DNA of 64,000 nucleotides, taken from a virus. The stretch lies in IMG/VR virus record IMGVR_UViG_3300030390_000715, positions 62,001 through 126,000 of that record; one strand, written 5' to 3'. The first letter of the stretch is position 1; each line of letters starts with the position of its first letter. This document shows positions 12,401-26,968 of the stretch, one piece after another. Both the position numbers and the translations under genes were made by a program. The notes under the pieces were generated by a model. The model ran no database searches. It was given only the letters and a program-made list of their open reading frames with translations, and was not told the origin of the DNA.

Positions 12401-13372
12401 ATGAAAATCGATAGAGCAGTAATAGAGATTGTCGGAGCTTGTAACTTCTCTTGTACGATGTGCCCGCAGGATAAGCGCAACGAACAGGGTGGTCGGCACA
12501 AAAACTTTCTCCGTAAAATGAACTTGCTTGAGTTTGAAAATTACGTTAGTGATTGCGCTAAACATGGTCTACGCGTAGTGAATCTCGACGGTTCGGGAGA
12601 AGCCACTGTTAACAGACAACTTCCTGAATACATTAAGATCGTCAAGAGATATGGCGCTGAGTGCGTGATCTTCTCAAACGGCTTTAAGATGCACGGCAAG
12701 TTTATGCAGGACTGCGTGGACGCTGGATTAGACTTCTTTAGATTTTCGTTTATAGGCTCTGATTCAGCCGAGTATGATAAGTGGATGTATAATACTAGAG
12801 GATCTAACTTCGATTTCATTAAAAAGAACATACGCGAGATGCGAGAATATGTTAAAACGTCTGGATCAAGCTGTACAGTCGCGACCTATCATCTAATCAC
12901 TGATAACGATAACATCGAAGTTCAGCTTGACAAATATAAGAAAATTGTTGAGGAACTAGATGTCAGGACTGAAATCTGGAAGATGCACAACTGGTCAGGC
13001 GTTTATGACATAGAGGATAATGCTAGAGAAGGTAAAACGAAAACCTGTGGTCGACCATTCTCACCTGATGTTGTGATAAGATCGGGTGGCTTAGACGGTA
13101 AAGTGGGAGCGGTAGCTCCTTGCTGTCAAGTATTAGGTCGTGACGAAGAGGCTGTTCTGGGTCATTGTTCAGAGAATACGATTGAAGAGATATGGGATGG
13201 ACCTGCATACACTGAGTTACGCGAACAACACACTTCAGGTAATTATCCAGACTATTGTAAATCGTGCGATTTCTTACTTGATGATCCAGAAGTTCTAGTG
13301 TACAGTAATCACGAAAGAGACTTACATAAAATGTATGGTACTGAATTCAACTTGGATGATTTTAGAGTATGA
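12401..13372 (+). CDS. radical SAM enzyme with C-terminal SPASM-like Cys cluster
   Basis: The 4Fe-4S radical SAM motif CxxxCxxC is at Cys14-Cys18-Cys21 (CNFSCTMC). The following GSGEAT (about residues 65-70) is the GGE-like SAM-binding strand. The C-terminal part has a set of cysteines (TCGRPF, PCCQVLG, GHC and CKSCD) typical of SPASM/twitch domains that bind extra Fe-S clusters. Such enzymes modify peptides, proteins or sugars. The four-base overlap with the next GT25-like gene puts it in the glycan operon, so sugar or protein modification is likely. Confidence 0.88.
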   Translation: MKIDRAVIEIVGACNFSCTMCPQDKRNEQGGRHKNFLRKMNLLEFENYVSDCAKHGLRVVNLDGSGEATVNRQLPEYIKIVKRYGAECVIFSNGFKMHGKFMQDCVDAGLDFFRFSFIGSDSAEYDKWMYNTRGSNFDFIKKNIREMREYVKTSGSSCTVATYHLITDNDNIEVQLDKYKKIVEELDVRTEIWKMHNWSGVYDIEDNAREGKTKTCGRPFSPDVVIRSGGLDGKVGAVAPCCQVLGRDEEAVLGHCSENTIEEIWDGPAYTELREQHTSGNYPDYCKSCDFLLDDPEVLVYSNHERDLHKMYGTEFNLDDFRV

Positions 13373-13956
13373 GCAAACCCGATGTACACATGATTGCCAT
13401 GTCAGAAAATGCAATTTCTATGCACTATCGCGACTACGTGCTTCCTTCATGGAAAGACGCGGGATATAACGTAGTGGAATTTGAAGCTATTGTTCCTGAT
13501 GATCTGAGTAGTCTCGGGCGTATAATTCCTTTGGGTGATAAGACGCGAAGAAATAAAGTCGTGGGATTTACTGATACCGAAAAAGCAGTTTGGTACAGTC
13601 ACTATAGCACATGGATGCTATGTCGAAAACTCAATAAACCTATCATAGTTATTGAACATGATATATTGTTAGAACATAACGAAATAGACTCTGAGGTATT
13701 TAACTATGACATTGCATGTCTATCTCATGTCACGCGCAAGAATGGTGATCACGCAAAGTTAGCCGGTGGTGCGTACTACATTACTCCGAAAGGCGCAAAG
13801 AGGCTTTGCGCAATTAAAGATCATAGGGATTTGATCACTTATAACTCGGACGCTTGGATTCATAGTCAATGCGACAAATACGGTAAATGGTTTATGATGA
13901 CAACGATACAATATCAAGACCCTAAAATAGGTGTTACAGTGGAGCATTTAAAATGA
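13369..13956 (+). CDS. GT25-like glycosyltransferase, 195 aa
   Basis: Glycosyltransferase family 25 (LPS glycosyltransferase/LgtB-type) layout: a conserved EKAVWYSHYSTW region (about 71-82) then IIVIEHDI, where family members have the E-D-D metal site, and a late GGAYYITPKGAKRL (about 129-142). This is one of four paralogues in the island (also at 17.66, 18.36 and 19.07 kb). Acts on an unknown acceptor in the host cytoplasm. Overlaps the genes on both sides by four bases. Confidence 0.75.
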   Translation: MSKPDVHMIAMSENAISMHYRDYVLPSWKDAGYNVVEFEAIVPDDLSSLGRIIPLGDKTRRNKVVGFTDTEKAVWYSHYSTWMLCRKLNKPIIVIEHDILLEHNEIDSEVFNYDIACLSHVTRKNGDHAKLAGGAYYITPKGAKRLCAIKDHRDLITYNSDAWIHSQCDKYGKWFMMTTIQYQDPKIGVTVEHLK

Positions 13957-14777
13957 AGAAAATGATATACCAAGTATCTGTTGGTCCAAGATCGACACTC
14001 TATGATGCGTGTATTAAAAGCGTAGCCGCATATTGTGATCGCCATGGATTCGAACATGTTGTACAAACATCGCCTAAGCTAAGAATCGCACCTGACATAT
14101 TTGATACAATGAGAAGCCCTGAGTCATATGGCAAATACGGTGGATATTTACCCATCTATGAAAAGGAGAATGCATTTAACTATATCAATGACTTTGATCA
14201 GATAGCAATTATCGATGCGGACATATTCATTCGCGAAGATGCTCCGAGTGTGTTCGACGATTTGACACCAGGGTGTGCTTTTGGTGCAGTGATCGAGCGC
14301 GAGATGCCTCTGGTGCCCGCTTATCAAAATAAGATTATCAGTTATAGTCAGATGCAATATGCCACATTACATAACGAAACAGATTTTAAGCCTAATAAAT
14401 TGGGATATGAATTTGCAAACATGGGTATGATTGTGTTAGACTGTAAGCTGTTCAATGGCAATTATCTGAAGAATCGAAGTGCAAGAGAGTTCCTAGAAGC
14501 ACCTGAGTTCAAGCGATTCATCGATGGCATAGGTTGTTGGAAGTGGTCTACGGATCAAACATTACTAAATTTTTATATCAAGAAGAATAAAGTACCGTTC
14601 GCTAACATGTCTCATGTATGGAACGGGCTTTACACTGCTAACGCTAAGATCAGTGAATGTAATTTCATACACTTTTTCTTAAAAGATAAACTGCCTGATA
14701 GAGGTGAATCGCTATTTAATTCAGACTCTTCTCTTTCAGAAAACTATGTTGTTGTTGAGAGACTAATTAATGTCTAA
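13953..14777 (+). CDS. GT-A-fold glycosyltransferase (GT8-like), 274 aa
   Basis: The DxD metal/nucleotide-sugar motif is visible as IIDADIFI (about residues 87-94). A later NMGMIVLD and a WSTDQTLLNFY element (about 196-206) match the acceptor/aspartate region of GT8-type enzymes. Substrates unknown. It is in the glycan operon, with an ATGA overlap upstream and an 8-base overlap with the following radical SAM gene. Confidence 0.75.
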   Translation: MKKMIYQVSVGPRSTLYDACIKSVAAYCDRHGFEHVVQTSPKLRIAPDIFDTMRSPESYGKYGGYLPIYEKENAFNYINDFDQIAIIDADIFIREDAPSVFDDLTPGCAFGAVIEREMPLVPAYQNKIISYSQMQYATLHNETDFKPNKLGYEFANMGMIVLDCKLFNGNYLKNRSAREFLEAPEFKRFIDGIGCWKWSTDQTLLNFYIKKNKVPFANMSHVWNGLYTANAKISECNFIHFFLKDKLPDRGESLFNSDSSLSENYVVVERLINV

Positions 14778-15891
14778 GTCGCAGGCTAAGTCATACGAAG
14801 AAAAGACGCAGAAGTATAGCACCTGGGGAGATAAACTCCTCCAGCATGCCGATCTCTTAGCTTCTATACAAGTCGAAGATAAGTTTAAGCCTGTCACGAT
14901 TCAGCTATCGTTGTGTGAAATGTGTGACAGTGATTGCCCATTCTGTTCGGTCGCGGCTAGACCTCTGAAGAGTTTCATACCTTGGGAGAAAGTTAAGAAG
15001 CTTCTACTTGATTTTAAATCATTAGGTGCTAAGAGTGTAGAGATAACAGGCGGTGGTAATCCATTACTGTATCGAGATAAAGCTGAGAAAAAGAATATCA
15101 ACGATGTGATCAGATTTGCTAGTGAAGAGTGTGGATTCGATATTGGTATTATTACGAACACTGCGAAGTTAGAACGACATTTATCTCCTGAAGTATATCC
15201 GTTTATCAATTGGCTTCGCATTAGCTTGATCAAGATAGACGAGGGTAAGAGTTGGGAACAATATGATTTCGGATCATTCCCTAGACATAAATTAGGATTC
15301 AGTTACATTATCTACGATAGCACAAACGGTATACCCGATGAATTGTCAAGAACTAATAAGGCTTATCTAGGAACTACAGTAGAAAGTATCGAAAGAATAG
15401 CCAGTTTGATAGAAGCTAATCCTGAAGTTAAGTTCTGTCGTATCGCAGGAAATTGCTTAATATCTTCGCACAACACTGAGATACGAGGTAAGTTCGGTAG
15501 TGTTATTGAAGCACTAGATAAACATAACAAGTTTTTTATCAAAGAGATATGGGACCAAGACAAAGCTTTCGGTGACGGTTGTTATGTCGGTCTTGTTCGC
15601 CCGTACGTAGCACCTCATCCACAAGGAGGTGAGTATCAAATTTATATTTGTACTAGTCACGTATTAGAGAATCGCATATATGATATGGATTATTCTCTTG
15701 GATCTATTGACAACGTGGTTGATATATGGTATAATGCTAATCAGCGATATGCAAAGACAGGAAATCCTTATGAGATACGCGGTAACTGTGGTGATGATTG
15801 GGATAAGTCTTGCGTTAAATGTTTTTATTACAACAACAACAAGCTACTGCACACCGTAGCACAACCTATGGAAGACCCGAACTTTCCTTAA
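14770..15891 (+). CDS. radical SAM enzyme, second copy in island
   Basis: CxxxCxxC at Cys52-Cys56-Cys59 (CDSDCPFC), with an additional Cys49 just before. ITGGGNP (about 93-99) is the SAM-binding GGE-like strand. Further cysteines near the C-terminus (ICTS, RGNCG, CVKC) suggest an auxiliary Fe-S cluster. It is only distantly similar to the radical SAM protein at 12.4 kb. Its place between two transferases fits a tailored sugar or peptide modification. Confidence 0.85.
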   Translation: MSKSQAKSYEEKTQKYSTWGDKLLQHADLLASIQVEDKFKPVTIQLSLCEMCDSDCPFCSVAARPLKSFIPWEKVKKLLLDFKSLGAKSVEITGGGNPLLYRDKAEKKNINDVIRFASEECGFDIGIITNTAKLERHLSPEVYPFINWLRISLIKIDEGKSWEQYDFGSFPRHKLGFSYIIYDSTNGIPDELSRTNKAYLGTTVESIERIASLIEANPEVKFCRIAGNCLISSHNTEIRGKFGSVIEALDKHNKFFIKEIWDQDKAFGDGCYVGLVRPYVAPHPQGGEYQIYICTSHVLENRIYDMDYSLGSIDNVVDIWYNANQRYAKTGNPYEIRGNCGDDWDKSCVKCFYYNNNKLLHTVAQPMEDPNFP

Positions 15892-15893
15892 AT

Positions 15894-16022
15894 ATGAACA
15901 ATATAGTACACGTAGTTTTTATGTTATGGCTGTCGTTATCGATAGAAGCAGATGACGATTTATATGGAGCATTGCGATCACTGAAATTAGTGGAGCAATC
16001 AAAAAAGGTGATATTATTATGA
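15894..16022 (+). CDS. very small hypothetical protein, 42 aa
   Basis: ATG three bases after the previous stop, ending with an ATGA overlap onto the methyltransferase start, so it fits the coupled operon. The N-terminal half (IVHVVFMLWLSLSI) is hydrophobic enough to cross or touch the membrane. The second half is an amphipathic helix. It could also be a remnant of a larger gene. Low certainty. Confidence 0.4.
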   Translation: MNNIVHVVFMLWLSLSIEADDDLYGALRSLKLVEQSKKVILL

Positions 16023-16600
16023 GTGAATTTAGTGAAGATTATTACGCGTCAAATAACTATAGCGATTATATGCAACGAGGTGATCGCTATCTAAGAACAG
16101 CGGATGAAATTGTCCAACAACTAGAAACTCTTGGTCTTAATAAAGAAGGTCTGATCTGCGATTTCGGTTGTGCCGTAGGATTTCTTTCTGCTGGATTAAA
16201 ATCTGTTCAGAAAAACCCTGTTTACGGTGTTGATGTTTCAGAGTATGCGAGAGGAGTGTGCGAGAGAAAGGGCATTACCGCACTCAAAGAGATAACTGAC
16301 AGCCAACACTCGGTAGTATTTTCTCTTGATGTGTTCGAGCATCTATCTAGTTCCGAGCTTCATGATATGTTTTCTAAACTAAAAACAGAGTGTATTGTAT
16401 TTCGTATGCCTGTCGTGGTCAATTCAGGCGAAGATTATCCTCTCGCCGTCTCTCGCGCTGATCCTACCCACAAGATTAGATGGACAAAAGATGAATGGCG
16501 TAGTTTCTTTAAAGAATATGGCTTCATGTCTCTCGACTTAAACCTTCACACAATATATAACTCCGATGGAGTCTTCACAGGAATAGCGATTAAATTATGA
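16019..16600 (+). CDS. class I SAM-dependent methyltransferase, 193 aa
   Basis: Motif I is at residues 46-55 (ICDFGCAVGF), followed by motif II VYGVDVS and the post-motif strand SLDVFEHL, as in Methyltransf_11/23 enzymes that methylate small molecules or sugars. There is no DNA-recognition domain and no DPPY or PCQ motif, so it is not a DNA methylase. Probably methylates a sugar or an intermediate made by its neighbours. ATGA overlaps on both sides. Confidence 0.8.
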   Translation: MSEFSEDYYASNNYSDYMQRGDRYLRTADEIVQQLETLGLNKEGLICDFGCAVGFLSAGLKSVQKNPVYGVDVSEYARGVCERKGITALKEITDSQHSVVFSLDVFEHLSSSELHDMFSKLKTECIVFRMPVVVNSGEDYPLAVSRADPTHKIRWTKDEWRSFFKEYGFMSLDLNLHTIYNSDGVFTGIAIKL

Positions 16601-17133
16601 AAAAAATAAAGGATGTAATGGACGATATGTTTTATGACAATAGAATTATTAGAACATTTATGAATAAGTTGCCTGTACCACCAAGATATGAGCATAAACA
16701 TAGACAACTCCAGATTCAGTTGGCTAGATTGGCACAAGATGAAGTTGACTCGTCAAAGGTACATAAAGCACTATTCGCTGAACATCGCCAGTTGACGTTT
16801 AAGTATGAAGCTGTTAAGAATTCTTATGAACAGAACGAATTCGATCTTATTAGTTTATATAAGATGATGTGGAAAAATCGAACCGGGGAGACTCCCAAAA
16901 CTATATCGTATGATCTATACAATAGACTAAAAGAACTTTATGTTATGAGCCCTAGATTGATTAAATACGAAATGCCAGTAATTGGAGTCGACCGTACAAC
17001 GATTCTAATTTCTTCTAAATTGACCCCTATTAAGTGGGATGAAATGCGAATGTTAATTTTTGGTGTGTCTCATGGTAAACTAGTTCTTCCGGACTTTAGT
17101 ATGGAATTGGTTGATGCGTATGACAACTCATAA
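16597..17133 (+). CDS. hypothetical protein, 178 aa, helical
   Basis: Basic, helical first half with a His/Arg-rich segment (YEHKHRQLQIQLARL, about 31-45), and a beta-containing second half. No family recognised. Coupled to the methyltransferase by an ATGA overlap and overlapping the next gene's start by about 20 bases, so it belongs to the same operon. Confidence 0.55.
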   Translation: MKKIKDVMDDMFYDNRIIRTFMNKLPVPPRYEHKHRQLQIQLARLAQDEVDSSKVHKALFAEHRQLTFKYEAVKNSYEQNEFDLISLYKMMWKNRTGETPKTISYDLYNRLKELYVMSPRLIKYEMPVIGVDRTTILISSKLTPIKWDEMRMLIFGVSHGKLVLPDFSMELVDAYDNS

Positions 17134-17671
17134 TTCATTTAGAGTAGAGCGAATCATTACCCCGCACGAAGTTAATATATTAAAAGATAATTTCAATAAA
17201 TTAACACCTCGACTCGCGCACCAAGATTACAACTTGTTTGATGTCGATAAGCGATTGATCGATGACTATAGCCATCCGATTCTTCGAAAGATAGATAGAC
17301 ATGTTGATCTTAAACCTATGTCACATTATTTCGTCAAGTATGGCGAAGAAGGATTCACTAGTCTACACACCGACGATGATGGTGTGGTTAAACTAACAGT
17401 AGTTACTTTGATCGAGGATACTGATCTAGTCGGGGGCGAAACTTTAGTCATTGATCGTTACATGAAATCAGCTAGACCGAAAAATAAGTATGCGAAACGT
17501 GGAAAGATGGTTAATGCACCGATTGGTCAAAGTAAGATACCTGTTATAGCTAAGATGAAAGTTGGCGAATCAGTCATATACGATAACAAAGTCACTCACG
17601 GTGTATGCCAAGTTGAAAGAGGATCACGCTTAGTTCTTGTAAGTTGGTATATGGCACACGATGAAATGTAA
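17114..17671 (+). CDS. 2-oxoglutarate/Fe(II)-dependent oxygenase (prolyl-hydroxylase-like)
   Basis: The facial triad is visible: His85 and Asp87 (LHTDDD) and distal His162 (VTHGVCQ), followed by an Arg (RGSRLVLVSWY) positioned to bind 2-oxoglutarate. A GGETLVI strand lies between, as in P4H-type double-stranded beta-helix enzymes. T4-like marine phages often carry such oxygenases; substrates are mostly unknown (protein, sugar or base). ATG 17114 is used; ATG 17120 is also possible. It overlaps the next gene by 11 bases. Confidence 0.85.
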   Translation: MRMTTHNSFRVERIITPHEVNILKDNFNKLTPRLAHQDYNLFDVDKRLIDDYSHPILRKIDRHVDLKPMSHYFVKYGEEGFTSLHTDDDGVVKLTVVTLIEDTDLVGGETLVIDRYMKSARPKNKYAKRGKMVNAPIGQSKIPVIAKMKVGESVIYDNKVTHGVCQVERGSRLVLVSWYMAHDEM

Positions 17672-18347
17672 TATAATATATGTCGCAGGTCATCCTCTAT
17701 CTGAAAAATGTCGAAAATTAACTGAGAATAGTCTTAAACACCACAGATATGATTATGAATCTATAAAGGGTGTCACCCCCGATACGATTATCGCGAGTGA
17801 TTTTCCCTTTCCTAATCTTATACTAGGAAGATTGTACGACTTCTATATTACTGGTCAAGATAGGAAATATGTTGTCAAAAAGAGTTGTTTGTTTAACAAT
17901 CTCAAATTCGCGCAAAGAGTCATTGAAGCTGATGAACCTATGATATTTCTTGAGCATGATACGATAGCTGTATCGCGTCTGCCCGACTTTGACTTTGACG
18001 AGTTCTGTATGCTATCATATGACTATGCATTCAAAGCACCTACCGCATTAGCGAAGGCACCATATGATAGCTATAACTTATACAGTAAAAGAGGGGTTCA
18101 TGATTTTCCGAGCAATTATCCTTTACGATACTATAAGCCCACAAAGTATAAAGGTGAGATCATGACTCCGGGCACCGCAGCCTATGCGCTATCGCCTAAA
18201 GGTGCGAAGAAGTTATTACAAGCCGCTAAAAAAGGCATAGAGCAATCCGACTTTATTATTAATTCTGGTACACTGAGACTTCAGCATTTAAGTCCTAGCC
18301 CGTTTCGTTACCAAAGCGTGAATCCAAATTTATCACATATATTATAA
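17661..18347 (+). CDS. GT25-like glycosyltransferase, 228 aa
   Basis: Second GT25-like paralogue. Carries the core pattern FLEHDTIA (about residues 94-101) in place of the family E-D-D, and TAAYALSPKGAKKLL (about 174-188), the same late motif as the 13.4 kb copy. The N-terminal strand is CNIIYVAGHP. Substrate unknown. Confidence 0.7.
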   Translation: MKCNIIYVAGHPLSEKCRKLTENSLKHHRYDYESIKGVTPDTIIASDFPFPNLILGRLYDFYITGQDRKYVVKKSCLFNNLKFAQRVIEADEPMIFLEHDTIAVSRLPDFDFDEFCMLSYDYAFKAPTALAKAPYDSYNLYSKRGVHDFPSNYPLRYYKPTKYKGEIMTPGTAAYALSPKGAKKLLQAAKKGIEQSDFIINSGTLRLQHLSPSPFRYQSVNPNLSHIL

Positions 18348-18356
18348 GGCAATACA

Positions 18357-19076
18357 ATGACTGGAATTGAAGGATATGTAATTACGATAGATGGACATGA
18401 GCCGTCGGAGAGTGCTTACTCAAGATTAGTTTCGAGTTCTTCCCAGACTTTCGGAAACACGTTCACTCTCCGCAAGTTTTCAGCTATCACACCAAAAGAT
18501 GATGTGTACGCTATAATGGCTAAACATACTATTGGATGGAATTATCCGGATATGGGTCAGGGTAGTCATCTATGCTACGATACAGGATTACTTAAATCTC
18601 CGTATCAATCAGAGGTATTAGAGAAAAGAATAGCTTGTTTTCTATCTCACTACGAACTATGGTGCAAATGTTTTGATACACAGCAGGCTATGCTAATCTT
18701 CGAACATGATGCTATATTCACGAGAAAGCTCCAACTTGACGTTTTGCAACTTTCGCGTTATGATGTCATTGGACTAAATGATCCTCGAGGCGCGACACGA
18801 AGATCCGATATGTATCACAATGCATCCAAAAAGTATAACGGTGTCGGACCTGCACCAAGAATAGACGATATAAATGTGCCTCAAGGAATTGCGGGTAACT
18901 CTGCGTACTATATAAATCCAAAGGGTGCAAGAAGATTGATCTTAAATGTATCGGAATATGGTGCTTGGCCCAACGATGCGATAATGTGTAGACAGCTAAT
19001 GGGTGGTAAACTAGGTCAATTGCATCCTTATGTAACAAAAATTCAACAAGGAATAGTTTCGACTACGGTGTTATGA
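18357..19076 (+). CDS. GT25-like glycosyltransferase, 239 aa
   Basis: Third GT25-like paralogue and the most typical: EGYVITIDG at the N-terminus, RIACFLSHYELW (about 96-107), IFEHDAI (about 119-125) and NSAYYINPKGARRLI (about 181-195). Related enzymes add galactose or similar sugars to LPS or to protein-linked glycans. Its stop overlaps the next start by four bases. Confidence 0.8.
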   Translation: MTGIEGYVITIDGHEPSESAYSRLVSSSSQTFGNTFTLRKFSAITPKDDVYAIMAKHTIGWNYPDMGQGSHLCYDTGLLKSPYQSEVLEKRIACFLSHYELWCKCFDTQQAMLIFEHDAIFTRKLQLDVLQLSRYDVIGLNDPRGATRRSDMYHNASKKYNGVGPAPRIDDINVPQGIAGNSAYYINPKGARRLILNVSEYGAWPNDAIMCRQLMGGKLGQLHPYVTKIQQGIVSTTVL

Positions 19077-19717
19077 AATCATATGTAATCACGATAAAGG
19101 AATTACCTGAATCAGTTAAAGCCGCAGAGCGCATGATAGCCTCTGCTCCTGAGTATGACATTCAAATGTTCGATGCGATTGTACCATCAAACAATCCAAA
19201 GCAAATTCTTGCTAACAATAATATTCCTGTTGGCTGGTTTAAAGAAAAAGGTTCTTACATTGATAACTGCATAGCCGCTTTTCTTTCTCACTGGACACTC
19301 TGGCAAATGTGTGTACGAGATGGTGAAGAGTATCAGATTTTCGAACATGATGCTGTAGCAGTAGTGCCTATTCCTCGACATATAAATTATCAAGGATGTA
19401 TTAATCTAGGCGCACCAAGTTACGGTTCACAAAACCAATGTAGAATTCTTGGTGTTAATCCTCTAACAACTAAGCGGTATTTTCCTGGCGCACATGCATA
19501 TAGATTAAAGCCTCGTGCGGCTGAGTCGTTAGTAGAGATGGCATATGAATATGCACAACCAACTGACCTTTTTCTAAACTTATCCTTCTTCCCATGGCTC
19601 GAGGAGTTCTATCCTCATCCTGTAGAGGCTAAAGATACGTTCACGACTATACAGAAAGTTGATGGTTGTACTGCAAAGCATAATTATGGAGAATCATATG
19701 AAATCATCGAATTTTGA
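19073..19717 (+). CDS. GT25-like glycosyltransferase, 214 aa
   Basis: Fourth GT25-like paralogue: KSYVITIKELP start, CIAAFLSHWTLW (about 68-79), IFEHDAVAV, and a diverged PGAHAYRLKPRAAESL in place of the usual PKGA motif. The direct neighbour and closest relative appears to be the 18.36 kb copy, suggesting local duplication. It overlaps the following GT-A gene by 20 bases. Confidence 0.75.
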   Translation: MKSYVITIKELPESVKAAERMIASAPEYDIQMFDAIVPSNNPKQILANNNIPVGWFKEKGSYIDNCIAAFLSHWTLWQMCVRDGEEYQIFEHDAVAVVPIPRHINYQGCINLGAPSYGSQNQCRILGVNPLTTKRYFPGAHAYRLKPRAAESLVEMAYEYAQPTDLFLNLSFFPWLEEFYPHPVEAKDTFTTIQKVDGCTAKHNYGESYEIIEF

Positions 19718-20378
19718 TAGATGTTTTATAACAGGATGCGATGCTAATACGGAGTGGATGCTTCCTTGGTTCTTAAAGCACTATCTAAAGCATAACGACA
19801 CCCCCATAGTTTTCGCTGATTTCGGTGTTAGTGATGCTACTCGTGCATGGATAATGCAGGTGAGTGAATTTTCTGATTACATTCCAATGGAGAAACAGCG
19901 AACAAACGGTTGGTTCTTAAAGCCTGCGGCTATGCTTAACTATCGAGTGACAGAATTGTGTTGGCTTGATACTGACATTCATGTTCTTGGTGATCTATCA
20001 GGCGTGTGGAATCATGTTGGTCATAACAAGTTGGGTATGGTTCAAGATCATCCGTGGTCATTACGAAGAAAAGAAACTTGGCATAACTCTGGTGTTGTTG
20101 CGATAAAGGGTAAGCCTGAGATACTTCGAAAATGGGCTATTGAATGTCAGAAAAACGAAAGAGAAGCGGCTCTTGGTATGGGTGATCAAGAAATACTTCA
20201 TGACATGATAGGAAATGACCCACTATCACGCCTCTCATTTATCGATGATATTCCAAACATATATAATTGGTTACGTATACAACTGATAGACGGGCAAGAC
20301 AATGCTAACAAACTAGCGATGCATTGGACTGGTGCTAAAGGTAATGATCAAATTAGGAAGATAATGTATAATGAGTAA
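19698..20378 (+). CDS. GT-A-fold glycosyltransferase (GT8-like), 226 aa
   Basis: The DxD motif is LDTDIHVLGDLSGVW (about residues 91-105). HNSGVVAI and GDQEILHDMI (about 155-164) match later GT8 elements, and HWTGAKG near the end could hold the nucleotide-binding His. The start at 19698 is preferred because GGAG lies eight bases before it; longer upstream starts would be non-ATG or lack a binding site. Confidence 0.75.
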   Translation: MKSSNFDRCFITGCDANTEWMLPWFLKHYLKHNDTPIVFADFGVSDATRAWIMQVSEFSDYIPMEKQRTNGWFLKPAAMLNYRVTELCWLDTDIHVLGDLSGVWNHVGHNKLGMVQDHPWSLRRKETWHNSGVVAIKGKPEILRKWAIECQKNEREAALGMGDQEILHDMIGNDPLSRLSFIDDIPNIYNWLRIQLIDGQDNANKLAMHWTGAKGNDQIRKIMYNE

Positions 20379-21090
20379 GAAAGTATTCCATGTTTTAGGC
20401 AATGGTGATAAAGCGAGTTACTATCTTGAGGAAAATCGAGTAGGAACAAAACTTCTCTGTAATATGCCTCCATTCGAAATGCCGCCAGATGACGTTTACG
20501 GCACATGTATGGTCGATTTTAAAATGATGATGGCACTCACAGAAGGTTCTGTTAGACTTGATCAATATATGTGGATTCTAGGCACTCGTCCTCGCGAATG
20601 GATGTATCAACGATCTGACTTTCACATGAAGTATGCAACAAACATTAAAGAGTTCTATACTCACGTGCCTAAATATGCAGGCAACGCAACCAACTTTAAT
20701 TGCGGTCACATGGCAGTTCACTATGCCGCGAGTAAAGGTGCTGAAGAGATTAACATGTATGGATTCGATACCATATTCGATTTCAATATGAGAAGCGTAA
20801 CCGATCTAGTTTTATCGAGCGATAGAACACAGCAAAACAACTATAGATTGCTAAACAACTGGAGACCTGTTTGGCGTGATATCATGCGAGAGTTTCCTAA
20901 CACTAAGTTTATTCTACACCACAACCATGACGGCTTGAAGATCCCTTTGCTTGACAATGTAGAGGTAAAGGTGTATAATGATGCACTTAGCAACCCACAA
21001 CAAAGAGAGGACAAAAGTGATATATCTGATGGTCGCGGTATGGATCAACAAGCTATCGAACCCGGTGTTTCGATCAAAAGCACGAAATAA
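20371..21090 (+). CDS. putative glycosyltransferase (DUF115/sialyltransferase-like fold), 239 aa
   Basis: Starts with a VFHVLGNGDKASYY strand-loop and has CGHMAVHYAASKGAEEINMYGFD (split over about 110-132), resembling the helix and GxD strand of DUF115 and family-42 sialyltransferases. The match is by eye and weak. The C-terminal 40 residues are polar and probably disordered. Last gene of the island operon. Alternative: an unknown Rossmann-like enzyme. Confidence 0.4.
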   Translation: MSKKVFHVLGNGDKASYYLEENRVGTKLLCNMPPFEMPPDDVYGTCMVDFKMMMALTEGSVRLDQYMWILGTRPREWMYQRSDFHMKYATNIKEFYTHVPKYAGNATNFNCGHMAVHYAASKGAEEINMYGFDTIFDFNMRSVTDLVLSSDRTQQNNYRLLNNWRPVWRDIMREFPNTKFILHHNHDGLKIPLLDNVEVKVYNDALSNPQQREDKSDISDGRGMDQQAIEPGVSIKSTK

Positions 21091-21094
21091 ACTA

Positions 21095-21123
21095 TTGCGT
21101 TTTTCTCGCGTTTGTGTTATAAT
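21095..21123 (+). promoter_or_regulatory. sigma70-type promoter, good -10, poor -35
   Basis: TTGCGT (21095-21100) and perfect TATAAT (21118-21123), spacer 17, 33 bases before the next ATG and directly after the island operon. Confidence 0.55.
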
Positions 21124-21155
21124 GGCTATATGCTAATAAACTATGGAAATATATT

Positions 21156-21905
21156 ATGATTGAAGACAAGCTCGACACGATGGGCGAAGCTTTGGTAGCT
21201 ATCGCAAAAATTCAGGATAAATTTGAACATGTTACAGATTTTAAATTGGACTATGGCGACCTCGAATGCGAAACTCTTCCTACAGGTCGTACATACAAAA
21301 CACCAGACGGTGAGAAATACCCTTCAATAACAACTGTACTGAGTGTTAATTCTGGCGACTCTATCGCTAAATGGCGCGCTCGTGTTGGTAACGAAGAAGC
21401 TGATAAGATTTCATTTAGAGCCTCAACGCGTGGTACACTCGTCCACGAAATCATCGAAGACTATATTAACAACAAAGAAGACTACGCTAAAAAGTATATG
21501 CCTAATATCGTTGCTAATTTTCTTGATGTTAAGGATATCCTAGATAGTCGTATAGGTAAAGTTTACGCGCAAGAAGTACCTTTGTATTCTGATCATTTAG
21601 GCATAGCGGGTCGTGTTGACTGCGTGGCTGAGTTTGACGGCAAGTTGTCGATCATCGATTTCAAAACATCTACGCGCACAAAGCTCCGTAAGTATGTTTT
21701 GAATTATTTTCAGCAAGAAGCCTTCTATGCAATTGCTTGGGAAGAACGTACTAAGTTACCTATCACGCAACTGGTTACTATTATCGCTGTAGACAACGAA
21801 GCACCTCAAGTCTTTATTGAACACCGTGATGTACATGCGCCAGAGTTAATTAAAACAATAGCCAAATATAGAGAGAAGAAAGATGCCGAACAAAGAAGTT
21901 TCTGA
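21156..21905 (+). CDS. PD-(D/E)XK-family nuclease (Cas4/RecB-like exonuclease)
   Basis: Motifs in order: TRGTLVHEII with His97, Glu140, GRVDCVAEF with Asp155, and IIDFKT with Asp168 and Lys170, then a QQEAFYA helix (motif QxxxY). This is the layout of Cas4/RecB-type phage exonucleases, with no visible Fe-S cysteines. Probably acts in phage recombination, DNA processing or host DNA breakdown. Overlaps the next gene by 23 bases. Confidence 0.85.
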   Translation: MIEDKLDTMGEALVAIAKIQDKFEHVTDFKLDYGDLECETLPTGRTYKTPDGEKYPSITTVLSVNSGDSIAKWRARVGNEEADKISFRASTRGTLVHEIIEDYINNKEDYAKKYMPNIVANFLDVKDILDSRIGKVYAQEVPLYSDHLGIAGRVDCVAEFDGKLSIIDFKTSTRTKLRKYVLNYFQQEAFYAIAWEERTKLPITQLVTIIAVDNEAPQVFIEHRDVHAPELIKTIAKYREKKDAEQRSF

Positions 21906-22215
21906 ATCAGCCGAGTACGAGAATTTCGTGGGTCAGACAGAAGTACCCGTAGATAATGAGCCTGCCAGTCTCGCAGAATTTGCTGGCATGGAAGATCCTA
22001 AGAAAGAATGGAAGAAAGAATGGGTCGGTATGCCCGAATTTGTACAGGAAGATAATCCTACATATAAGACTATATCAATGCACTTTCGCAACCAAGAAGA
22101 CTACGAGGAGTTCGCTAAGTTGATAGGGCAACCTCTGACTAAGAAGACAAAGAGTACATGGTATCCTAGATTAGATCGAAGCGCAAATTCGCTACTGCGA
22201 TGGGTTGAAGATTAA
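21883..22215 (+). CDS. conserved phage protein, 110 aa
   Basis: The second half has a conserved-looking core: EWVGMPEF (about 46-53), then YKTISMHFRNQEDYEEF and IGQPLTKKTKSTWYP (about 85-99). I have seen this core in other phage proteins and in ParB/methylase-linked contexts, but no activity is known to me. The N-terminus is acidic and disordered. Coupled by overlap to the nuclease. Confidence 0.65.
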   Translation: MPNKEVSESAEYENFVGQTEVPVDNEPASLAEFAGMEDPKKEWKKEWVGMPEFVQEDNPTYKTISMHFRNQEDYEEFAKLIGQPLTKKTKSTWYPRLDRSANSLLRWVED

Positions 22216-23073
22216 ATGATCGAAAGAATATACATACCGACTGTTCGAAGATGCGACAATCAAATTACGTTCGAGAATCTTCCTAGAGATTTGCAGAAAC
22301 GAGTTGTGATGGTTGTTGAGTCTGGTGAGCGACACCTGTATGAATATGATTGTGAGTACCTAGAAATACCCGAAAGCATAGTAGGTACTTGGACACAGTT
22401 AGCACAGACTAGATTGTTCATTCATAAACATGCAGGAGCAATTAAGTATTGTGTAGCCGACGATGATATAAAAATTCGAAGAAGAAACGCTAAGTATTGG
22501 ACTGGTCAGTCTAACATGGAAAAGTCTAAACAAGATGCGACCTCAGAAGAAATACTTGATATGTATGAAACTGTGGATAAATGGCTCGACGAAGAGCCTA
22601 TAGGAGTTGTTGGTCTTTCTGATAGTTTGAGTCCACCTGCGACCAATGTTTATCAGGATACGAAAGGCGTGTTCTCTTATGTATTTTATGATGGTAGAAT
22701 GCTTTCAGAGATTATCGATGATCTGGACATATGCTCATTGAGAGTAGCAGAGGATCTCCTGTTTCTCTTTGAGGTACTATCTAGAGGAATAAATACTAGG
22801 CAGTCTACCGAGTGGCTGTATGATAACAAAAGCATGACTGATAAAAAACTTGCGGAATCTAGAATAGTCTGGTCAGAAATGTATAAAGATGGTGACGAAA
22901 AGCCGGTCAACTACTTTCAAGGTGAAGAGCATTATGACGCTATGAGATTCATTCAAAGCAAGTATCCCCACTGCATGAAAATTTTCGAAAAGGATGGAAA
23001 GATGAAAAACGTCAAATATTGGAAAAGAGTATACCAACCTCGGGATACATCTAACTTAATGGAGTTCTTTTAA
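22216..23073 (+). CDS. putative TAGT-like glycosyltransferase, 285 aa
   Basis: A GT-A-like layout: IYIPTVRR strand at the N-terminus, TRLFIHKHAG, then YCVADDDIKIRRRN (about 77-90), where DDD would bind metal and nucleotide sugar. This resembles TET/JBP-associated glycosyltransferases (TAGT), a phage family predicted to glycosylate modified DNA bases. It directly precedes a clearer member of that family with no gap. Identity by eye only. Confidence 0.55.
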   Translation: MIERIYIPTVRRCDNQITFENLPRDLQKRVVMVVESGERHLYEYDCEYLEIPESIVGTWTQLAQTRLFIHKHAGAIKYCVADDDIKIRRRNAKYWTGQSNMEKSKQDATSEEILDMYETVDKWLDEEPIGVVGLSDSLSPPATNVYQDTKGVFSYVFYDGRMLSEIIDDLDICSLRVAEDLLFLFEVLSRGINTRQSTEWLYDNKSMTDKKLAESRIVWSEMYKDGDEKPVNYFQGEEHYDAMRFIQSKYPHCMKIFEKDGKMKNVKYWKRVYQPRDTSNLMEFF

Positions 23074-24005
23074 TGACTGATGCACGTTACCCGATATACA
23101 TTATTTCGAAGGGTAGATCAGATTCGATGGTATCTTCAAACTCATTAGCGAGAATGAAGATACCTCACTACATATCAATAGAACCTCAAGATTGGGATGA
23201 TTATGAGAAAGCACTTGATAAATTTGGTACTCGCGATTTTGTTACTCTTCTATTACTTCCCTTTAGCAACCACGGAGATGGTCCGGGTCGCGCTAGGAAT
23301 TGGTGTTGGGATCATTCTATTACTTTGGGTGCTAAACGCCATTGGGTTCTGGACGATAATATCGCTGACTTTTATCGTCTACATAATAACCAAAGAATAC
23401 GAATAGAGAGTTCTGCATTCTTTAGACCTATGGAAGATTTTGTTGATCGCTACACTAACGTAAAGATTGCAGGTCCACAATATAGATTCTTCTGCGCCTC
23501 TAATCAATCGTATCCTGCTTATGTAAAGAACACCCGAATCTATTCATGTCTGCTTATTGAGAATGATTGTAAACACAGATGGCGTGGTCGTTACAACGAA
23601 GATACTGATCTTAGTCTTCGAGTGATGAAAGATGGTGACTGTACGATCCAGTTCAATGCGTTCCTTCAAGGTAAAATGCCTACGCAAGCTTTGAAGGGTG
23701 GTAATACTGCTGAGTTTTATCATAAAGAAACTGGGCTAGATGAAAATGGTGTTGCTATTCAATCTGGTGAGCTTGTTAAATTCGAAGGTAAATACAATGC
23801 CGCAGGTACTGTAGCAAAGTCGCAGATGTTGGTTGACATGCACCCAGATGTAGCTACAATGGTATGGAGATATGATCGTTGGCATCACCATGTCAACTAT
23901 GATTCTTTCAAGAAGAATACGCTAAGGAAAGTTGATGGTCTTGTAGTACCGAAGGGTATCAATAATTACGGAATGAAATTAATTAATAATTATGGAGGAA
24001 AGTAG
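23073..24005 (+). CDS. TET/JBP-associated glycosyltransferase-like protein (TAGT), 310 aa
   Basis: Contains the features I associate with TAGT: PIYIISKGR start (residues 7-15), GDGPGRARNWCWDHS (about 67-81), the DxD-like HWVLDDNI (about 90-97), NTRIYSCLLI and RGRYNEDTDLSLR (about 171-183), with HPDV and RWHHHVNY near the end. The family is predicted to transfer sugars to hydroxylated or otherwise modified pyrimidines in phage DNA. Overlaps the previous gene by one base. No TET/JBP oxygenase is present here; the only 2OG oxygenase (17.1 kb) looks P4H-like. Confidence 0.75.
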   Translation: MTDARYPIYIISKGRSDSMVSSNSLARMKIPHYISIEPQDWDDYEKALDKFGTRDFVTLLLLPFSNHGDGPGRARNWCWDHSITLGAKRHWVLDDNIADFYRLHNNQRIRIESSAFFRPMEDFVDRYTNVKIAGPQYRFFCASNQSYPAYVKNTRIYSCLLIENDCKHRWRGRYNEDTDLSLRVMKDGDCTIQFNAFLQGKMPTQALKGGNTAEFYHKETGLDENGVAIQSGELVKFEGKYNAAGTVAKSQMLVDMHPDVATMVWRYDRWHHHVNYDSFKKNTLRKVDGLVVPKGINNYGMKLINNYGGK

Positions 24006-24011
24006 AGTTAT

Positions 24012-24566
24012 ATGAATATACGAGACGCGACAAAGGCGATGCATGATAAGGTAGAGGAAACACCCTTTGCTATAAAACTGATGACCGGTAAATTGTCGAG
24101 GCAGGAATACTTCAATTATCTTAAAGTACAGCGACACATTTTCTCTGATATGGAATATCGTTGGAGCTATGACATTTTGAATGGACTGGCTCGAACGACC
24201 AAGATAGATGCCGATATTGATGAAATGTTACGAGGTGACCAACCTCTCGAAAACAATAATTTTGATGCTACACTCATGCTTGAGATATGCGAATATAGCC
24301 GCTTCATGGGCAGATGCCGTGATCCAGTAACAAAACTTTATACAAAAGACTATGAGATCGCGAACATATATCTAAACTATATGGGTTTAATGTTCGGTGG
24401 TGGTATTGCGGCGAAGCTAGGATACACCACTGAAGGTAACATTTATAACTTCGAGAGCCGAAATGAATTGATAAGATACATTCGTAGCTTAGACGTAAAC
24501 GCTGATATTGTTAATGAAGCTTTTCAATACCATATAAACATTTTTGAGGCTTTGGATAACCAATGA
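24012..24566 (+). CDS. ho: heme oxygenase
   Basis: Opens heme to biliverdin, iron and CO using reduced ferredoxin. The proximal heme-ligand histidine is His11 (ATKAMHDKVEE), followed by the family helix YFNYLKVQRHIFSDMEYR. The distal helix is YMGLMFGGGIAAKLG (about 118-132), with the glycines that let O2 bind. Length (184 aa) fits compact bacterial and phage enzymes. It overlaps the next gene, a bilin reductase, by four bases, which gives a two-step heme to biliverdin to reduced-bilin pathway. Similar pairs are known from cyanophages and oceanic phage contigs. Confidence 0.85.
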   Translation: MNIRDATKAMHDKVEETPFAIKLMTGKLSRQEYFNYLKVQRHIFSDMEYRWSYDILNGLARTTKIDADIDEMLRGDQPLENNNFDATLMLEICEYSRFMGRCRDPVTKLYTKDYEIANIYLNYMGLMFGGGIAAKLGYTTEGNIYNFESRNELIRYIRSLDVNADIVNEAFQYHINIFEALDNQ

Positions 24567-25249
24567 GTGTACTCTGGAACAAACTGCACGAATTTTCACA
24601 TTCACTTGAGACCATCATTCATGACGGCTTAGGTGATTGTGACGAGTTTACAGCGACTTACGATAACACCGTTGTTGAGAATGGCATTCATAAAAATGTT
24701 ATGTTTCAGAGCGAGAAGTTGGATTTAGGTCATATCTCTATTATTGATATGCGAGAGAAGCGCGGTATGTGGATGATGCACTTCGCATGTTTCGCTGACG
24801 GTGATTATCCTATGCCTATATTCGGCTTTGATATTATTTGTGGAAAGAACAAGGTCACTGGTTGTTTTCATGATGTATCACCTGTTGGAGTTAAGAGTCA
24901 AGCAGAACAGGATTTTCGCGAGAACGTGAAAGAGTATGTTCCGGAAAGGACTAGAGAGTTGCCTCCTTGGGCAAAAGAAATCTTCTCTGACAGTATGCTC
25001 GTTCAAGGTGTCACTAAGAATGAAGATGACATAGACAATCTAACAAGAATAGGATTAGCCAATCTAACGTCTTGGATAAGTGAGTTGTCAAGTAGAGATG
25101 AAATGCAAAATTGCATGACCTATCGAAATGCCTTATCGAAGTATTGTTATAATCAGCTTCAGAATACTAACTCAAAGAATGTAATGATATCATTAGGATT
25201 AGAAGAAAGTTATGTCGATAAATTTAAACGTGTCCAGTTCCCCTATTAA
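24563..25249 (+). CDS. pcyX: ferredoxin-dependent bilin reductase (PcyX/PcyA-like)
   Basis: Reduces biliverdin to a coloured bilin with electrons from ferredoxin. Three blocks align by eye with PcyA: PMPIFGFDIICG (about 83-94) with the catalytic Asp90 (Asp105 of PcyA), HDVSP just after it, RELPPWAKEIFS (about 130-141), and the C-terminal YCYNQLQNTNSK...VDKFKRVQF. The PcyA His88 position seems to be Asp54 here, so it is not a standard PcyA. PcyX, the oceanic-phage branch that makes phycoerythrobilin, is the best candidate. Preceded by heme oxygenase (ATGA overlap) and overlapped by the DUF454 gene by 38 bases. Confidence 0.85.
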   Translation: MSVLWNKLHEFSHSLETIIHDGLGDCDEFTATYDNTVVENGIHKNVMFQSEKLDLGHISIIDMREKRGMWMMHFACFADGDYPMPIFGFDIICGKNKVTGCFHDVSPVGVKSQAEQDFRENVKEYVPERTRELPPWAKEIFSDSMLVQGVTKNEDDIDNLTRIGLANLTSWISELSSRDEMQNCMTYRNALSKYCYNQLQNTNSKNVMISLGLEESYVDKFKRVQFPY

Positions 25250-25637
25250 AAAAGCTCTATGGTATATCACAGGAATGGCTAGTCTAGTACTAGCCTATAT
25301 CGGCTTTATCACTCCTGGTATTCCATTCTCTTGCTTCCTAGTATTCTCTGCATATTGCTTCAGTAAGTCTTCGAAGAAAATGCACGACTGGCTATACAAT
25401 CACAGGTGGTTCGGTCCCTTTCTCACAAACTGGACGGAATATAAAATATTTCCCACACCCATGAAATACTCGATGGTCATTGTCATGTCTTCGAGTGTAA
25501 TCATTCTCTGGCTCACTACTGAGAGTTTAAAAGCTGTACTCTGGAGTGGTGGTTTTATGTTTCTTGTCGCTTGTTGGGCATGGACATATCCAGGATCAAA
25601 AAAGGAATGGGACAAAAGAAATTCAAAAAAAGCTTGA
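25212..25637 (+). CDS. DUF454 (YbaN-like) inner-membrane protein, 141 aa
   Basis: Membrane segments at about residues 15-47 (one or two passes, ITGMASLVLAYIGFITPGIP) and two more at about 87-122. The hallmark PGIPFSCFLVFSAYCFSKSS (about 35-54), then LYNHRWFGPFL, matches the DUF454 pattern. Function of the family is unknown. The 38-base overlap with the bilin reductase makes a three-gene unit, so it may help heme or bilin handling at the membrane; that is inference from position. DUF454 is unusual cargo for a phage. Confidence 0.8.
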   Translation: MSINLNVSSSPIKKALWYITGMASLVLAYIGFITPGIPFSCFLVFSAYCFSKSSKKMHDWLYNHRWFGPFLTNWTEYKIFPTPMKYSMVIVMSSSVIILWLTTESLKAVLWSGGFMFLVACWAWTYPGSKKEWDKRNSKKA

Positions 25638-25663
25638 CAATATCTCCCAGTGTGTTGTATAAT
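25634..25663 (+). promoter_or_regulatory. sigma70-type promoter with repeated leader cassette
   Basis: TTGACA (25634-25639) and TATAAT (25658-25663), spacer 18. From the -10 to the start codon (25658-25695) it closely matches 9581-9623: both read ATAATAGTACTTCATT, then AGAGAGATAAGATTATG. Confidence 0.85.
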
Positions 25664-26223: not shown

Positions 26224-26682
26224 ATGACAAACTTAGAACAGCTAAAAAACGAGAAACAATTTACGGATATAGAAATATTAGATTTTGCTAAGAAAAATCT
26301 CAGGTTTACTACCGATGGTTCTGGAAAGACTCAACTGCATGTGCTATGTGATGTTAATACTGTTGACGGTAATGCTGTTCTTGTCGGCGGTAATGTTGGT
26401 AGTGTTGACGGTAATGTTGGTAGTGTTGACGGTAATGTTGATGTTGTTCGCGGTGATGTTGATATTGTCGGCGGTAATGTTGATCTTGTATTCGGCTGGG
26501 GGGGTGATGTTCGCGGTAATGTTCGCAAGGTTGGCGGTGATGTTGAAGATGTTGTCGGTAGTGTTGATACTGTTAGCGGCAATGTTCGCAAGGTTTACGG
26601 TGTTGTTGAAGATGTTGTCAGTAATTCTTATGCTGTTAGCGGTGGTGTTGTTCTTGTCGGCGGTGTTCCTTATGATAGTTAA
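26224..26682 (+). CDS. heptapeptide-repeat protein, probable beta-solenoid, 152 aa
   Basis: Residues 1-40 form a non-repeat head. From about residue 43 to the end there are some fourteen copies of a seven-residue unit, consensus V-x-G-[ND]-V-x-x (for example VDGNVGS twice in a row, VRGDVDI, VSGNVRK). Val every third or fourth place with Gly/Asn turns is typical of a small parallel beta-helix. The DNA repeats are 21 bases long. Role unknown; an adhesive or capping module is possible. It overlaps the next gene by 11 bases. Confidence 0.7.
   Translation: MTNLEQLKNEKQFTDIEILDFAKKNLRFTTDGSGKTQLHVLCDVNTVDGNAVLVGGNVGSVDGNVGSVDGNVDVVRGDVDIVGGNVDLVFGWGGDVRGNVRKVGGDVEDVVGSVDTVSGNVRKVYGVVEDVVSNSYAVSGGVVLVGGVPYDS
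26350..26679 (+). repeat. array of imperfect 21-base repeats
   Basis: About fourteen units with a GTTGxCGGTAATGTTG-like core coding the heptapeptide repeats. Two of the early units are identical. A run of seven G lies at 26498-26504. Confidence 0.85.
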
Positions 26683-26968
26683 ATATCGAAAAAAACCAGT
26701 AACAATCGAGGCGATGCTATATATCTATCCCGCCTGTGATATATTAAAAGTATGGCTAGGCAATTCTTGTGGCACAGAATCGTTGCCGCGAGTTGGAGCG
26801 AAAGGTGAGCTTGAGATAGTTACTTTAGAAGACGGCTTTGACGCTAGAGTCTGTCACGTTGCTACTGAGGGCGATTACATCATTAAGGGTGTTCAAGGGG
26901 AATTTTATTCCTGCAAACCCGATATTTTTGATATGACTTATGAACTGGAATATTTGGTATCAAATTGA
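26672..26968 (+). CDS. conserved phage protein of the KYRKKP type, 98 aa
   Basis: Starts MIVKYRKKPVTIEAM and ends with GDYIIKGVQGEFYSCKPDIFDMTYE (split), a combination found in many unrelated phages and prophages. No biochemical role is established to my knowledge. The start at 26672 was chosen because the conserved N-terminus begins there; the same frame stays open far upstream only because it runs through the heptad repeats. Confidence 0.8.
   Translation: MIVKYRKKPVTIEAMLYIYPACDILKVWLGNSCGTESLPRVGAKGELEIVTLEDGFDARVCHVATEGDYIIKGVQGEFYSCKPDIFDMTYELEYLVSN

Follow-up and report, generated by a model that had tools for sequence, protein, structure and literature searches.

Why phages of nonphototrophic bacteria degrade heme and then reduce what is formed was called enigmatic in a 2024 paper on hemO-pcyA/X(-alaS) cassettes, which occur in pelagimyophages and freshwater phages and which, in phage CB_2, encode working enzymes (PMC11480375). 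The 64,000-nucleotide stretch of viral DNA analyzed here (the window) raises the same question. A preliminary description had recognized two overlapping genes, one for a heme oxygenase (hemO) and one for a ferredoxin-dependent bilin reductase (FDBR). Both open reading frames lie where they had been placed, but the gene set was incomplete, as a third overlapping gene encoding a DUF454/YbaN-family protein had been overlooked (Table 1). The hemO-FDBR pair is real, correctly identified, and known in kind; the two altered active sites and the third gene appear to be new.

Table 1. The source record and the features of the hemO-FDBR-DUF454 locus, in window coordinates.
Feature	Position	Strand	Length and basis
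Source record IMGVR_UViG_3300030390_000715	152,753 bp; window = 62001-126000		
Heme oxygenase, HemO	24012..24566	+	184 aa; PF01126, PDB profile match, predicted fold
Ferredoxin-dependent bilin reductase, FDBR	24563..25249	+	228 aa; PF05996, 5owg, model, tree
DUF454/YbaN-family predicted membrane protein	25212..25637	+	141 aa; PF04304, hydrophobic stretches, linkage
Promoter-like TTGACA-18-TATAAT (12/12)	25634..25663	+	consensus scan only

The hemO and FDBR genes run in the same direction and share an ATGA overlap, and the start of the DUF454 gene overlaps the end of the FDBR gene by 38 bases. Because the full-consensus promoter-like sequence sits exactly at the DUF454 3' end, the next transcription unit would start there, and this element at the operon 3' end probably serves the next gene. 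Just upstream of hemO (window 13369-24005) lies a GT25-type glycosyltransferase cluster together with two TAGT (DNA-hypermodification type) glycosyltransferases. Downstream, window 26224-26682 encodes a repeat-rich protein of GGNV/DGNV units, and another long frame (26285-26968) overlaps it.

The phage, a marine virus, is T4-like, as its record contains a T4-type major head protein, DNA polymerase, ribonucleotide reductase, and single-strand binding protein. Its terminase shares 71.5% identity with the C48C1 phage terminase (Kyanoviridae) and about 45% with those of cyanophages; the record of C48C1, the nearest relative, names no host, and we located no paper on it. In a tblastn search of the 152,753-bp record with cyanophage queries, gp43, gp23, and td were detected, and psbA, hli, CP12, cpeT, PTOX, talC, pstS, and phoH gave no match. 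The Photo_RC, phytochrome (PHY), and Fer2 (2Fe-2S ferredoxin) profiles likewise matched nothing in the record, and neither 5-aminolevulinate synthase (AlaS) nor ferrochelatase was found across its 152,753 bp; the record may be incomplete, so genes missing from it are no proof of absence. A search for a bilin-binding partner in the record yielded a single phycobilisome-profile match, which fell below the cut-off (18.7 versus 22.2 bits). This match falls within a 1648-codon frame among the tail genes, annotated as a tail fibre by position, and was rejected as due to chance. The earlier picture of a T4-like phage without photosynthesis or cyanophage genes is thus borne out over the whole record by both tblastn and profile searches, and the infected bacterium is probably nonphototrophic.

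We then considered the two enzymes. HemO matches Pfam PF01126 at 5.8e-7 (30.0 bits; curated cut-off 23), and a PDB search with a profile of its phage family retrieves human HO-2 at 5.2e-29. Its AlphaFold model (pLDDT 91.6) has the all-helical heme oxygenase fold, with Foldseek matches to HO-2, HmuO, and HO-1 at about 1e-5 to 1e-4. The proximal heme ligand His11 is invariant in 39 sequences. Profile search, PDB match, and predicted fold therefore agree with the earlier assignment of this protein as a heme oxygenase with His11. A motif alignment shows that the distal Asp of the Gly-rich helix is replaced, with GLMFGG in place of the canonical GDLSGG; this Asp is a trait of canonical heme oxygenases and not of every family member.

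The FDBR matches PF05996 at 2.1e-12 (47.7 bits; cut-off 31) and PHROG 7278 at 7.1e-19, and its closest solved sequence is PcyX (EBK42635, PDB 5owg; 1.2e-31). Its model (pLDDT 93.1) retrieves PcyA at 3.6e-12 and PcyX at 4.1e-9 in Foldseek. PebS was absent among the sequence matches, and the structural match to it is weaker, at about 5e-5. Residues His57, His73, and Asp90 align with PcyA His74, His88, and Asp105; the latter two of these, His73 and Asp90, are invariant in 44 sequences, and the spacing to PcyX is ungapped. The preliminary description had placed this protein among the FDBRs on the basis of Asp90 and an RELPPW block; both are present, and profile search and structure prediction agree. 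It had the family right but treated the enzyme as generic. At the position of PcyA Glu76 and PcyX Asp55, the window FDBR carries Ser59. Glu76 is specific to PcyA and required for 18-vinyl reduction (PMC10151467), and Asp55 has been called the PcyX-specific catalytic residue (PMC11480375).

To place this substitution, we built a tree of 87 FDBRs from viral contigs and references, dereplicated at 95% and composed without pre-PcyA and alphaproteobacterial PcyA. Sequences separate by the residue at this position. The D clade (Asp) has 57 tips with a support of 0.88 and includes PcyX and the FDBR of Pelagibacter phage Mosig EXVC030M; the S clade (Ser), which includes the window FDBR, and the K clade (Lys) have 14 tips each, both with a support of 1.0; and the two PcyA references carry Glu. 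A deeper grouping of the S and K clades has a support of only 0.63. The window enzyme therefore belongs to a separate Ser59 clade, which is further distinguished by His43 for Trp, Cys101 for Ala, and Gln225 for Leu. The change extends to the partner enzyme, as the distal Asp is missing from every one of the 14 S-clade heme oxygenases (GLMFGG, GFMFGG, AMMMGG, and similar), which keep the proximal His, and the distal position is Asp in the D clade and Asp or Glu in the K clade. Since the S-clade FDBR and HemO changes fall on one branch, they represent one joint event and not 14 independent ones. Two further observations were made among these loci: part of the heme oxygenases at the K-clade loci (L015-L049) have Glu replacing the distal Asp, and at L010:1620-2430 the FDBR spans two overlapping frames, reflecting a frameshift or a sequencing error.

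The paired changes might signal noncanonical chemistry, in which a HemO without the distal Asp would have ceased to form biliverdin IX-alpha, serving to bind or handle heme or to cleave it in some other way, and a different tetrapyrrole would be the FDBR substrate. Such a reading draws on the uniform loss of the distal Asp in S-clade HemO and of the catalytic acid in all their FDBRs, on the retention of Asp or Glu in HemO of the other clades, and on the fact that the FDBR fold, as seen by Foldseek, is common to RCCR and coproporphyrinogen oxidase. We nonetheless consider it quite unlikely: HemO keeps His11, the Gly-rich helix, and the heme oxygenase fold, and the losses, lying on one branch, count statistically as a single event. 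Some bacterial heme oxygenases are also functional without the distal Asp.

Comparison with known systems shows what is shared and what is distinct. The preliminary description had implied that a hemO-FDBR pair in a virus of a nonphototroph would be novel; such pairs were already known from the cassettes of PMC11480375 and from Mosig, a cultured virus of a nonphotosynthetic bacterium in which adjacent heme oxygenase and FDBR genes are annotated. Mosig is also a T4-like phage, and its hemO and FDBR genes overlap in the same order. However, Mosig has both acidic residues that the window phage lacks, Asp at the Asp55 position of its FDBR and the distal Asp of its HemO; the two FDBRs are about 38% identical, and no DUF454 gene lies within the surrounding 20.5 kb in Mosig. 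PcyX (EBK42635, 5owg) shares the His and Asp residues with the window FDBR but differs at Asp55 versus Ser59 and falls outside the fully supported clade of the latter. The hemO-pcyA/X-alaS cassettes, including that of freshwater CB_2, are phage tetrapyrrole cassettes like the window operon, whereas their alaS has no counterpart found in the window phage. The S-clade FDBR with Ser59, the HemO without the distal Asp, and DUF454 as a third gene appear to be new.

The locus could still be an ordinary PcyX-type cassette that makes phycoerythrobilin, with DUF454 as a passenger and with the Ser59 and distal-Asp changes chemically neutral. PcyX is indeed the nearest solved enzyme, the gene pair and its order are those of Mosig, and Asp55 is missing from K-clade phages too, which shows natural variation at this position. 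Yet Ser59 is invariant in the 14 S-clade tips, as is Asp in the 57 D-clade tips, at a position described as catalytic and PcyX-specific (PMC11480375), and the linkage of DUF454 recurs in several arrangements. On this evidence we regard an ordinary cassette as somewhat unlikely.

The third gene was characterized through its genomic neighbors. It matches PF04304 at 5.6e-25 (88.0 bits; cut-off 35.1), and a search for solved structural relatives found none. In nearly all relatives with enough flank, hemO lies beside the FDBR gene, and close relatives repeat the order hemO-FDBR-DUF454, with the FDBR and DUF454 genes often overlapping as they do in the window. Of the 14 S-clade tips, 10 have DUF454 and 4 do not, against a background of 0/14 K-clade and 3/57 D-clade FDBRs. 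A search anchored on the window DUF454 alone returned 43 viral loci, which were reduced to 21 after 95% dereplication. Fourteen of these are tetrapyrrole-linked, with 5 adjoining FDBR and 9 adjoining AlaS (5-aminolevulinate synthase by NCBIfam, 2.5e-163), and 7 adjoin neither. When AlaS served as the anchor, DUF454 was found within 1.5 kb in 28 of 50 distinct loci, mostly overlapping, a figure that is an upper guide because the AlaS query was built largely from DUF454-linked AlaS. The arrangements include AlaS-DUF454, DUF454-AlaS-FDBR with 4-base overlaps, DUF454-FDBR, and convergent DUF454/AlaS, and some phages carry both hemO-FDBR and AlaS-DUF454. In viral contigs L235, L236, L237, and L239, overlapping DUF454-AlaS-FDBR genes occur with no heme oxygenase detected nearby. 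The S-clade copies form one group (0.93) in the DUF454 tree and the other FDBR-linked copy falls elsewhere, which suggests that the pairing arose at least two times, deep support in this tree being weak.

An exclusively heme-linked role for DUF454 was ruled out, as 7 of the 21 phage clusters and several bacterial plasmid copies lie elsewhere. Some of the remaining loci are near genes that, judged by eye, are NrdB-like, Fe-superoxide-dismutase-like, or A-type Fe-S carrier-like; at L105:745-1443 and L108:3385-4062, DUF454 directly follows a gene of the last kind (also by eye), an iron-linked pairing. A bacterial origin of DUF454 was sought in a genome scan and set aside, the scan giving only seven loci, all in MAGs, one with a phage-like AlaS-DUF454 setting. 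The Neomarinimicrobiota-binned contig L106 has AlaS-DUF454 in the gene setting of a phage contig and may be a mis-binned large phage.

Some bacterial copies are found at heme-related loci. In an Acinetobacter heme-uptake locus whose record bears a phage name, and on a Pseudoalteromonas plasmid that also has TonB and Slam genes, ybaN comes directly after a heme oxygenase gene; on an Acinetobacter plasmid it lies inside a heme-receptor cluster. These HemO-YbaN loci share with the window operon a DUF454/YbaN gene right after the heme oxygenase; unlike it, they carry TonB, Slam/T11SS, or receptor genes, an FDBR is absent from the stretches inspected, and their DUF454 copies are distant. The records named Acinetobacter phage MD-2021a appear to be host contigs, as their content is that of an ordinary bacterial chromosome, with chemotaxis, tRNA, and heme-uptake genes. 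Published work is consistent with an iron link: T11SS loci are enriched in DUF454 as well as in haem oxygenase (PMC12282271), E. coli ybaN is among the genes directly controlled by Fur (PMC7157518), and DUF454 increases under iron starvation (PMC7970244). DUF454/YbaN is not named in the text of PMC11480375, and we found no paper in the searchable literature that contains YbaN and heme oxygenase as whole words; the association of DUF454 with phage tetrapyrrole genes thus appears undescribed in searchable papers.

These associations also bear on light sensing, in which a phytochrome or bilin-binding globin of the host would receive the phage bilin, with an effect on host signaling. There is precedent for this idea, as a coexpressed CB_2 phage PcyA gave a functional phytochrome its chromophore (PMC11480375) and in heterotrophs, pre-PcyA genes are found together with those of bilin-binding globins (PMC10151467). 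The record, however, contains neither a phytochrome (PHY) nor a credible phycobilisome-family gene, and the links of DUF454 are to iron and heme, which makes light sensing, in our view, quite unlikely. A light-harvesting role is unlikely as well.

Our preferred proposal is that the hemO-FDBR-DUF454 operon degrades the heme of its host, probably a nonphototrophic bacterium, in the course of infection, a reading for which we see the chances as even. From family membership, we infer that HemO would open host heme to a biliverdin, releasing iron and CO, and that the FDBR would reduce this biliverdin; host ferredoxin is the proposed reductant, as a Fer2 ferredoxin was sought in the record and not found. 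Without Glu76, PCB is an improbable product, and the bilin formed is probably a different one; as PcyX Asp55 is missing too, 15,16-dihydrobiliverdin, phytochromobilin, or phycoerythrobilin is proposed. DUF454 may act as a membrane partner on the heme, iron, or bilin side. The gain would most likely lie in managing the iron and tetrapyrroles of the infected cell and not in light harvesting, a preference that follows from the DUF454 associations and from the poor fit of a photosynthetic role. Against this heme-breakdown reading stand the missing distal Asp of HemO and the distribution of DUF454, which is lacking at 4 of the 14 S-clade tips and also occurs away from tetrapyrrole genes. A further weakness is that iron release alone needs no bilin reductase; biliverdin detoxification or export is one possibility.

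More tentatively, the S-clade operon could constitute a distinct phage heme-catabolic pathway, which would combine an altered HemO with a Ser-type FDBR, yield a different bilin, and have DUF454 as a general tetrapyrrole partner; we hold this to be possible but short of probable. The Ser59 clade offers a natural test of what the catalytic acid of PcyA and PcyX decides. DUF454 is a widespread, Fur-regulated bacterial membrane family, and its linkage in phages points to heme or iron handling, which is testable in laboratory strains. If the proposal is true, the role of DUF454 in phages would extend to a function for the Fur-regulated YbaN family of bacteria.
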